NCBI GenBank assembly: GCA_013365365.1
Contig: JABVXU010000191.1
Span: forward strand, 1 to 64,000
Reading direction: 5' to 3'
Origin: Cruorifilaria tuberocauda
Taxonomy: Eukaryota; Nematoda; Chromadorea; Rhabditida; Onchocercidae
Length of the DNA: 64,000 nucleotides
Under the pieces are notes generated by a model. That model worked only from the letters and a program-made list of their open reading frames with translations, had not been told where the DNA came from and did not search any database. Made by a program: the position numbers and the translations under genes. Shown here piece by piece: positions 60,062 through 63,824 of this stretch; the stretch's first letter is position 1, and every line of letters begins with the position of its first letter.

Positions 60062-63000
60062 TCAGTCCGGATGCACAAGAATCCATCGTAAGCCTAGTTT
60101 TTCTTTTAACCTAGATAGTTTCCGTATTTCAGTCATTTTAACCAGTGATATAAAAACGGTGCGCTTTGCAATCCATGATTCGCCTGTGAAGTTTACTCTG
60201 AATATGAAATGAAATCAGTTTAAGATTTGATTTGAGCAACTTTTTTTAGATGACGATTTCACTAAAAGATAATCGAAAAATTTTTCTTTATCTACGGATT
60301 TTGATTTAACTTTTCTTCCTTTACTTTATCTTATCAACTGATTCTGAATTTTCAAAAATATTTAATCACATTCGCTTTCAATGAAACTTTAACTTCAATT
60401 ATATCTGCCCTATCTACTATCTAGCGAAACCGCAGCCAAGGGAACGGGCTTGGCAAACACAGCGGGGAAAGAAGACCCTTTATAATTCTATCTGCCGATT
60501 AAATAGAACAACGCATTACCTTCGAGCGTATGCATCGGGTTTCGGTAAATCATAATTGATTACAACCATCGGTGATTTCAAATCAATCAAACCACGGACA
60601 TATCCCGTTGTTATCATAATACGTACTTGACGCAATTCGAATGCTTCTATAGCAGTGTGAATATCGCTCGATGACATTTCACTAGTCTATACGATATAGC
60701 TATACATTAAACAATCAAGTAACAAGTAAGGAATAAGTAAGTTAGACAAAGATTCCCGCTGTCGGTAAAAGCCGAAATTACATAAAAATAAGTGTTTTCT
60801 GTAGATGATAAAATTATAGGTGGGAAATCTTTGTCTAAATATGATCAATTGAAATAGATCTTATGCTTTTTCTATTTCAATTCATTGTCAGTTCATCATC
60901 CTCTTCAAAAGGTCAACTGTCATCGTCTTATCGCTGATTAGTTTCAACTTGTTCACATTATTATTAATGTGTTGTAAACATATGAGGCTTATTGAACACC
61001 ACGTCAGAACATCCTTGGGTAGGATTGGAGTAGGATTTCGTACCACTAGGATTGGATTGAGGAGGATTCCTGAATGAACCTTCTTACCGTGGAGCTGACC
61101 CGATTTCGATATGCTCATATCATCAGCTCATGAAGTTCTCTGAATCCATTATAACTGAGGTCAGGGACCAACTAAGGGATCCTACCGAAACGCATTTCCG
61201 ATCGTTTGAATTAACTATTATCATATCGCAATCGACTATCTTGACTTATTTGTTGTATCTTACAACCTTTGCGTCTCTCTAACTTTTCCGACACCCTCAA
61301 GTAATTAAAGATGAGAGATGATGATTTGAATATAATAACCTCTAAGATCTCATAATTAAAGTTAGAATTTCATCTAGCCATACTTTTCATCATAATAAAA
61401 CTATTTATTCTGGTTGTAAACTCGATCAAATTAATTTCAAATGGATAAATGAAACTTATTTTGAATAATATCATGAATAATATCTGAATATTTTTCATCG
61501 TGTTCAATCCATTATCATTCAATTTATCACTAAGATAATGATTTTAAGATGATAAAATGATAAGACAAACCAATGTAACTACTGGTAAATTTTGTGTTCT
61601 TAATATTTTCGCATTTGCTAAGGTAGTTCCTTGTATGTTACAGCAAATAAGAATCGGCACTGATGTGCTTATTCGACATAAATCGCCTAATACATCCATT
61701 TTTCGTAGCTAAAAAAGTGACAAGTAAAAAAATTGGTGATAAGCTAAATCAATGAATTGTTGAATGATTACGAAGAAATGTTGTAAAGTTTGCAACATGA
61801 ATTAGTGGATTGAAATTTATCATAAACCTTGGAAAACTTAAAAAAAAAACATAAATTCTCAAAGGTAAAATAAATTTTCCTTTCTGCCCTATCTAGTGGA
61901 ATCTATTTCAAGAATTGGAAAAGTTAATAAGGAAGAGCACAAAGCCAAATAGTGAACTTTTTTTTTCACTAATTTAAACAATCAATTGTTTGCATCTTAT
62001 GTCAATTTGATAAGTAATTCAAATTAATAAATTAAAATTTGTCACTAATACCTTTAATAAAATCCAGTTTTGTTTCAAAAAATTTTGAACCACGGAAATT
62101 ACAAATTTTGTTAATGTTAAGATGAAATATGCAATTAGTATAATTATAATGATAATTGATATTATTAATTATCAGATAATTATAGTTATCTTTTATCATC
62201 TATTTTTAATAGATTCTAGCGTTAATGTATTTTATATGATACTTAATTAATTGCTTTGCATGATATTATTCGGTAGCAAACCTCATCCGAGACATATAAA
62301 GCAAAGTGATTCACGTCAATGAGACCTGGATTTACGCTATAGCAAGTAACATTATCAATGAAATTTTTGATTTGACGTACAATTGGAACATTGGGTGGTA
62401 AATGCAACGTTACCTAAAATAAACTTGAATAACTCTAAGTAAGTTAATGTGAAATGTTATCTTCATCTATTGTGTGATACTTAATTTATCAATAAAGAAT
62501 TTAAGAATATTTCAACATTTATTCATTATCATATCATTTAAAGTGATGAATGATTGTATATCATGATGAAGAATTTTATAAACATTTTTAAATTTGCGAG
62601 AAATATTTTGTATGAAATTTTGAAATTAACATTATTTACATAAATACTTGTTGGTTCATATAAGCATATAGGTTAAAGTATACATGAATCTATCACATTC
62701 TAAATTTAAATGAATTTAATTGAACTGAAGTATGAGATATTTTTGAGAAGAGATACAAATCAATAAATGATCAAACAAAAGTATTTAATCTTGTTAATTA
62801 TAAATCTCTCGATGATTAATTATTACGTAAGATAATTTAATTTGCAATACTTCTTTACATGAATATGTCTTTGAATGAAGCCAAGCACTCGTTCTAATGA
62901 TCGTTTCAGTGGAAAATGGACCATTGCAACGGAATCGAGGATGAATAGTTCTTTGATAAACATTGGTTCTATGAAGAAGTTTCATTATATAATGATTTAA

Positions 63001-63824
63001 GATTTCAAATAAGACTAGAACAGAAGTAATTAAAGTTAAATTGTCATTTAAAATTATAATTTAACTTTAATAGTTTCAATAAGTTAAAAAATTTTTAGCT
63101 TTTTTTTTTGCTTACCAAATAAATCATTTGTACAAGAAATTAGGCGAACTTAAAGTATATTAAGTATTAAACATTTTAGAATTTTGATGATGAAGGATAA
63201 AAATGATACAAAAAACCGATATTGCTTAATTCTCAGATTTCCTGAAATTTTTGTTAAAATCAGATGATGACATGATATTGATCACTTTATTAGCAATTAA
63301 TTGTAATTATCGCTGAGATAATAGCTTGATTATGATAAATCACTCAATTGCGATAATTATATCTTCAAATGATACGAGTTTGTAAAAAAAATTTTTAAAT
63401 CAGACGATACCAATAAATTGTTTCATTATTTGGGAAAATATTCAATTTCAAAATAAAAACCATAAAAGCTTATCGATAAATCATTCAAATGATTAGTAGC
63501 GTTTAAAGATTTAATGAAATTAAAATCTTCAATAATCTTGGAAGTTACGTTATTGATTGATTACATTACTTGATAGATAATGTTTTAATCAAAAAAATGA
63601 TACGCTTAGCTTACTTAATACATTCCGATAAAGAAGTAAATCAACCCTTCCCACTGTACCAACCACAATAAAAGGGTTTTGTCGCCTTATCTCCTCCACC
63701 TGTTCTTCAAACCTTCGATCACTGATACACGCCAAACATTTCGTTTCTCCAACATCCTCATTTAACTGTCTTGTTACCTTCAATTTTGAGTATTTCAAAT
63801 TTTCAAATATTGCAAGAAAAGCAT
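60062..63824 (-). CDS. Degenerate DEAD-box (eIF4A-like) helicase paralogue, 5' part uncertain
   Basis: Exons on the minus strand: 63824?-63615, 62968-62859, 62413-62282, about 61094-60918 (left end uncertain), 60686-60520 and 60197-60062 (TGA). They align with eIF4A in order, from RQLNEDVGETKCLACI and IVVGTVGRVDLLLYR (eIF4A VGTPGRVxDML) through FIKELFILDSVAMV (FVLDEADEM) to ITTGYVRGLIDL and VVINYDLPKPDAYARR. Catalytic motifs are altered: DEAD is DSVA, SAT is HLP, ARGID is VRGLID, and HRIGRxGR is ARRVNFTGE. The frame is open and splice phases agree, so it may make an inactive fold protein. A young pseudogene is the alternative. Motifs I and Ia are not seen; the 5' end probably lies outside the window. 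Confidence 0.65.
60407..60479 (+). pseudogene. 28S rRNA gene fragment
   Basis: About 73 bases from CCCTATCTACTATCTAGCGA through CAGCCAAGGGAACGGGCTTG to GCGGGGAAAGAAGACCCT match the highly conserved large-subunit rRNA core just downstream of the R2 retrotransposon target region. Flanking sequence is not rRNA. The copy lies inside the last intron (60198-60519) of the minus-strand DEAD-box-like gene, in opposite orientation. It is too short to be functional and is best read as an inserted fragment. Confidence 0.9.

Follow-up and report, generated by a model that had tools for sequence, protein, structure and literature searches.

A candidate eIF4A-derived pseudohelicase in Cruorifilaria tuberocauda and related parasitic nematodes

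Very few pseudohelicases have been described, and the kind is known but rare. Utp25 (Def), of the small-subunit (SSU) processome, is called only the second proposed pseudohelicase in excerpts of PMC9539457, and PriA of Deinococcus radiodurans appears as a pseudohelicase in excerpts of PMC4504706. Here we analyzed a gene of the filarial nematode Cruorifilaria tuberocauda whose predicted product resembles the translation initiation helicase eIF4A. The stretch of DNA analyzed (the window) covers the initial 64 kb of contig JABVXU010000191.1 (here C212), which is 99.8 kb long and belongs to a 71.7-Mb assembly (GCA_013365365.1). The gene lies on the minus strand and comprises seven exons coding for 315 amino acids, with exon 1 just past the window edge. 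That its product is catalytically dead and conserved is well supported by sequence comparisons. The protein is probably an ATP-independent pseudohelicase descended from eIF4A and conserved, whose former ATPase cleft would serve as a new binding or locking surface.

Degenerate motifs and descent from eIF4A

Motifs were compared between this protein and its orthologues in eight other species, for a total of nine sequences. The protein has neither a Q motif nor Walker A. Motif II reads LDS(V/I/A/T) in 9/9, replacing DEAD; two prolines occupy the A and T positions of SAT in motif III in 9/9; and RR(V/I)NF is found at HRIGR in 9/9, replacing the arginines of motif VI. Across the nine species, motif V reads TGY(V/I)R(G/S)L(I/V)D and the GG motif (S/N)D. 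An initial reading of the window from its letters alone (the sequence-only reading) had proposed that the motifs for ATP hydrolysis and for RNA binding were both replaced. The former part was borne out, and the loss extends to the Q motif and Walker A. The latter stood for the GG motif but not for motifs Ia and Ib, as all nine sequences retain the equivalents of human eIF4A1 residues T109-R110 (motif Ia) and T158, G160, and R161 (motif Ib). The motif V threonine, T242, is also invariant. We take these residues of motifs Ia, Ib, and V to be RNA contacts in DEAD-box proteins. Judging from the alignments, the ATP motifs are gone and the RNA contacts are lost only in part.

The protein matches Pfam families PF00270 (DEAD; 27.5 bits versus a curated cutoff of 26) and PF00271 (Helicase_C; 31 versus 23.5), and at an E value of 0.01 the orthologues match them in 8/8 and 7/8 cases, respectively. 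CMS1 and UTP25, which we take to be other degenerate DEAD-box families, were rejected as candidates, no Pfam match besides DEAD and Helicase_C being obtained at the thresholds used.

All six introns of the gene occupy the same alignment columns, in the same phases (0, 1, 0, 0, 0, and 2), as those in the matching part of the worm's own canonical eIF4A gene on contig C378. The worm's eIF4AIII-like gene (C496) shares one of the six, and eIF4A and eIF4AIII likewise share one; eight further DEAD-box-like loci of the genome, represented by automatic models, share at most one of six. By our arithmetic, the chance of six random matches is about (6/873)^6. Because a processed copy would carry no introns, the duplication took place at the DNA level. 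The comparison of gene structures showed that the gene is an intron-bearing duplicate of canonical eIF4A, the descent already proposed by the sequence-only reading. One intron of the C378 gene (locus L051) was placed from the DNA by hand, the automatic model having handled this stretch badly; it has an apparent GC donor (GAAAGAA/GCACGG ... TTTTAG/GAG), or the assembly contains an error there.

Sequence similarity by itself would leave room for an origin from eIF4AIII or another DEAD-box gene. Scores for eIF4AIII come near those for eIF4A-I (80.8 versus 86.6 bits), and the eIF4A rows are about 20 to 22% identical to the Cercopithifilaria orthologue (P0001; alignment A3). A free sequence tree placed the family beside eIF4A of the Spirurina with a support of 94/99 (not starred). 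Against that placement, none of five approximately unbiased (AU) tests rejected an alternative, and three of the five constrained trees outscored the free tree. The AU p value was 0.62 for grouping with eIF4AIII, where the constrained tree was slightly better than the free one, and 0.40 for grouping with other DEAD-box rows. An uninformative tree is expected of a very long branch. We gave the sequence tree no weight for placement because the AU tests reject nothing. The introns, six shared with eIF4A versus one with eIF4AIII and at most one with each of the eight further loci, make an origin outside eIF4A highly improbable.

Orthologues and gene model

Orthologues were sought among 5.8 billion proteins, with candidates limited to 0.55 to 1.75 times the query length, a range that fused gene models would escape. 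The search yielded P0001 to P0009, from Cercopithifilaria, Acanthocheilonema, Elaeophora, Wuchereria, Brugia timori, Setaria, Dirofilaria, Thelazia, and Brugia malayi, at E values of 3.3e-114 or better, versus 1.6e-14 or weaker for eIF4A-like proteins. Eight of them (seven filarioids plus Thelazia) are collinear with the Cruorifilaria protein and 63 to 78% identical to it, with identical losses, and the motif losses are thus common to nine related worms, as the sequence-only reading had anticipated for a conserved protein. Thelazia belongs to the Thelazioidea and Setaria to the Filarioidea, in which the remaining genera are also placed.

B. malayi P0009 (Bm8152) and the Wuchereria models P0010 and P0011 skip or retain stretches at exon borders and were excluded from the statistics. 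They look like the same gene and would lack part of the protein if the models represent real isoforms. At the exon border after residue 169, P0009 and P0011 continue into a stretch rich in aspartate. It resembles an in-frame intron that was retained and would be either an annotation artifact or an isoform.

A profile search brought in no additional species carrying the protein. Among the matches listed, there was no orthologue from Dracunculus, Gnathostoma, or Ascaris, though their eIF4As are in the database. A search of literature listings on filarial and nematode eIF4A, DEAD-box proteins, and Bm8152 retrieved no publication on this protein. As far as the searches reached, the protein appears confined to one group of parasitic worms.

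In the gene model (Table 1), the introns are GT-AG, the splice phases are compatible, and the reading frame is open throughout. The six minus-strand exons with in-phase splices described by the sequence-only reading were thus recovered, except that its first exon in the window, exon 2 of the present model, begins at the splice acceptor at 63777 and not at 63824. This acceptor, AATTGAAG, is without a pyrimidine tract, yet it yields the frame found in the orthologues. The second arginine of motif VI is split by the intron between exons 6 and 7. Spliced alignments with the Cercopithifilaria and Thelazia proteins gave an identical start and six identical introns, disagreeing only on where the alignment ends within the last exon. 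A gene model restoring the canonical motifs, which would have undone the proposal of selective motif loss, was not obtained: spliced alignment of the worm's own eIF4A to C212:60000-66299 restored none of them and scored 207, versus 1254 for the Cercopithifilaria orthologue.

Table 1. Exons of the eIF4A-like gene; positions are those of the window except for exon 1
Exon	Position	Strand	Features of the encoded segment
Exon 1	C212:64188-64087, outside window	minus	Start codon, helix following the lost P-loop, motif Ia LTREL
Exon 2	63615..63777	minus	Degenerate GG motif (ISDRR), motif Ib TVGR
Exon 3	62859..62968	minus	Degenerate motif II (ILDSVAM for VLDEADEM), strongly conserved helix FPLKRSLERVLGFIQ
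Exon 4	62282..62413	minus	Degenerate motif III (LPP at SAT), end of first RecA-like domain, linker
Exon 5	61571..61708	minus	Start of second RecA-like domain, motif IV region ILICC, equivalents of eIF4G contact positions
Exon 6	60520..60686	minus	Degenerate motif V (ITTGYVRGLID), best conserved stretch VINYDLPKPDAYARR
Exon 7	60062..60197	minus	Degenerate motif VI (RRVNFTGE for HRIGRxGR), C-terminal tail LGLRWIL, stop codon

The start of the protein coincides with the lost P-loop. The first methionine pairs with the lysine of the GKT P-loop when the alignment is extended without gaps, and in structure alignments residue 1 of the model corresponds to residue 82 of human eIF4A1 and residue 88 of eIF4AIII; the multiple alignments put the first residues elsewhere, so that this placement comes from the ungapped reading and the structural model. 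The same start methionine is found in the eight orthologue models, that of Setaria having an additional 36-residue N-terminal extension. An acceptor-like sequence, TTTTTCTAG, lies 22 nucleotides upstream of the ATG, with an in-frame TAA between the two. We infer that the exons farther upstream have been lost and that this acceptor now serves for the addition of a spliced leader. In the three minus-strand frames of C212:60000-66299, no contiguous GxGKT, DEAD, DExD, SAT, or HRxGR motif was found, the sole partial match being a GKT at 65156, beside a stop. A tblastn search for upstream exons with the Q motif or P-loop, using the eIF4A N terminus, returned only the TREL exon (E value of 0.047) and chance-level pieces; the same query recovered C378 at 6e-27 as a positive control.

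No second close copy was found in this genome by a search that scored only the best candidates; three other matches, on C444, C378, and C310, have 27 to 29% identity. C444, like C355, carries long intronless frames of bacterial type (loci L001, L005, and L018), by reading a DEAD-box helicase adjoining a methionine aminopeptidase-like frame and a PriA-like helicase. These are probably contigs of a Wolbachia endosymbiont within the assembly. On C212 itself, a family B DNA polymerase gene (L009) lies upstream of 64188 on the same strand; a reading of its frames suggests that it ends about 1.8 kb upstream and is REV3-like. A 142-amino-acid open frame on the minus strand at 577-1005 is largely serine and probably represents a simple-repeat stretch.

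Constraint, predicted fold, and possible roles

Tests of selection were performed at the protein level, the DNA being read directly for this genome alone. The alignment contains 140 invariant columns of 315, versus 86.9 (standard deviation, 7.5; largest value, 102) in 200 simulations with equal rates. Rates are heterogeneous among sites, with a gamma shape of 0.65 and a gain in log-likelihood of 71.7. Substitutions are more conservative than random single mutations of the gene's codons in 8/8 comparisons and lie beyond all 1,000 simulations in seven. From 402 parsimony changes and a nonsense-to-missense ratio of 0.063, about 25 stops would be expected under neutrality, and 0 were observed. In the DNA of this genome, 315 codons are open, and the introns carry 0.077 to 0.096 stops per codon, depending on the frame.

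A dying pseudogene, whose frame has stayed open by chance or because the decay is recent, would account for the loss of the catalytic motifs and of the 5′ end. It would also fit the faster change relative to eIF4A, as the Cruorifilaria and Thelazia proteins are 63% identical, versus 89% for eIF4A. This explanation is nevertheless very improbable, given the identical losses in nine species, the frame open in directly read DNA in spite of the stop frequency of the introns, the rate heterogeneity, the conservative substitutions, and the preserved splice phases. Together, the protein-level tests argue against neutral decay.

Constraint is concentrated where the catalytic motifs used to be. The 52 former-motif columns have a mean entropy of 0.269, versus 0.653 elsewhere, a value reached by only 1 of 314 circular shifts; when the 32 columns of motifs II, III, V, and VI are taken alone, 4 of 314 shifts reach the corresponding value. 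Conservation is highest in VINYDLPKPDAYARRVNF, which leads into motif VI, in the helix FPLKRSLERVLGFIQ that follows motif II, and in motif Ia. Five eIF4As share 196 invariant columns; the family retains the eIF4A residue in 38 of these and is fixed for another residue in 61. Two of the 38 (M1 and L5) are not meaningful, the first seven residues being badly aligned. A new surface at the old cleft is suggested because the former catalytic columns were rebuilt and held, rather than being the first to relax as in mere loss of ATPase activity.

A structural model built from 48 rows that included eIF4A had a predicted local distance difference test score (pLDDT) of 87.2 and a predicted template modeling (TM) score of 0.82. 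By Z score, its best rows were closed, RNA-bound eIF4AIII and eIF4A1, with bacterial DbpA in a tie with them (listed Z, 30.4 to 29.5). These results describe the predicted fold of a DEAD-box protein in general, not of eIF4A specifically. The closed state of the model is no evidence by itself because of the alignment bias. With a model built from orthologues only, Foldseek listed eIF4AIII and eIF4A chains first, at a TM score of about 0.4.

We propose that the canonical eIF4A gene was duplicated at the DNA level before Thelazioidea and Filarioidea diverged. The copy has lost the Q motif, Walker A, DEAD, SAT, and the arginines of motif VI and retains the layout of two RecA domains at the sequence level. 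Such a protein would be unable to bind or hydrolyze ATP in the manner of DEAD-box proteins. The replacements in motifs II, III, V, and VI, with the helix after motif II, may make up a surface that works without ATP, either by locking the two domains to each other or by binding a partner, and the retained residues of motifs Ia and Ib may still touch RNA. The protein might then work within a ribonucleoprotein, where it would be a scaffold or a competitor and not a motor. Taken as a whole, i.e., a clade-restricted pseudohelicase that arose from eIF4A through P-loop loss and whose ATPase cleft was rebuilt into a fixed, conserved binding or domain-locking surface, making it an ATP-independent part of a ribonucleoprotein, this scenario is possible but tentative.

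Several observations count against this proposal. The orthologue-only model is poor (pLDDT, 56.7; best TM score, 0.43 among the Protein Data Bank rows listed), and the 48-row model is biased to the fold of the eIF4A relatives, perhaps in the closed state. Bacterial DbpA ties with eIF4A by Z score (29.7), and bacterial CshA is the first Foldseek row for the 48-row model. Without its P-loop strand, the first RecA domain should be weaker. Regarding constraint, the eight BLOSUM comparisons of substitutions are not independent, one genome being common to all, and Setaria is the comparison that does not lie beyond all simulations; the columns assigned to motifs were chosen with the alignment already in view; and core packing could account in part for their conservation. 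The count of 0 stops is biased except for this genome, which was read as DNA, since annotated orthologue proteins are stop-free by construction. The same limit applies to stop codons in related species, which the sequence-only reading had named as a sign against it: the annotated orthologue proteins are intact, but they would be so in any case. Finally, no orthologue from Loa, Onchocerca, or Litomosoides is among the matches listed.

Two other roles were weighed. The retained residues might hold RNA without ATP and so bring an active helicase or another enzyme to it, making the protein an RNA-binding cofactor. Precedents in the excerpted sources are Utp25, for which such a role is proposed (PMC9539457), and D. 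radiodurans PriA, which still binds DNA (PMC4504706), and the motif Ia, Ib, and V equivalents conserved here agree with such a role. Conversely, the protein does not keep the GG motif; at RSGSSR, the five rows printed carry E or Q in place of the first arginine, and the final arginine is variable; and QKER of eIF4A is aligned with SSDI in this protein. RNA binding of DEAD-box proteins also normally requires ATP-driven closure. We regard the RNA cofactor as a less likely alternative, though one to be taken seriously.

The second role, a decoy in translation, had been offered as an example by the sequence-only reading. The protein would compete with eIF4A for binding to eIF4G, or to a different protein with a MIF4G domain, and dampen cap-dependent translation. 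It descends from eIF4A and keeps the second RecA-like domain, the site of most listed eIF4G contacts, and competitive inhibition is one of four pseudoenzyme roles in the excerpts of PMC9539457. In human eIF4A1, contacts with eIF4G have been modeled through R45, D265, E268, D296, and T298, according to excerpts of PMC7470955. In the worm proteins, T298 is replaced by P and D296 by N in 9/9, E268 by R in eight and Q in one, and D265 is D in 5/9; the R45 equivalent would fall in the missing N terminus. The residues thus speak against a decoy, an argument weakened by this worm's eIF4A, in which two of the four sites in the C-terminal domain are occupied by S and K and which so itself differs from human eIF4A1 at E268 and D296. 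We consider the decoy role improbable and favor the ATP-independent pseudohelicase with a new surface at the cleft.

Comparison with known systems

What is new here is a lineage-restricted eIF4A duplicate that lacks the P-loop and differs strongly from eIF4A. If the proposal is true, it would provide an eIF4A-derived case, sampled in nine species, for which the parent gene and the history of the introns are available, so that the timing and manner of the loss of catalysis, and what replaced it, would be directly traceable.

Like the eIF4A encoded on C378, the protein has a collinear layout of two RecA domains, all six intron positions and phases, the motif Ia T-R, and the motif Ib T-x-G-R. Unlike eIF4A, it lacks the Q motif, Walker A, DEAD, SAT, and the arginines of motif VI and begins at the P-loop lysine. 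eIF4AIII (DDX48) is near in sequence and predicted fold but has only one of the six introns in common. Among pseudohelicases, Utp25 is the nearest precedent, and D. radiodurans PriA the nearest for the loss of ATPase activity. As described in the excerpts of PMC4504706, PriA is a helicase relative with poorly kept motifs and no ATPase activity, found in one clade, as is the worm protein; unlike the latter, it is a bacterial DNA helicase whose activity was lost in the orthologue itself, not in a duplicate. Utp25, as portrayed in the excerpts of PMC9539457, is similarly DEAD-box derived, with vestigial motifs, an eIF4A-like predicted fold, and no DEAD sequence. It is larger, essential, and present from yeast to human, whereas the worm protein would be a lineage-restricted copy of eIF4A.
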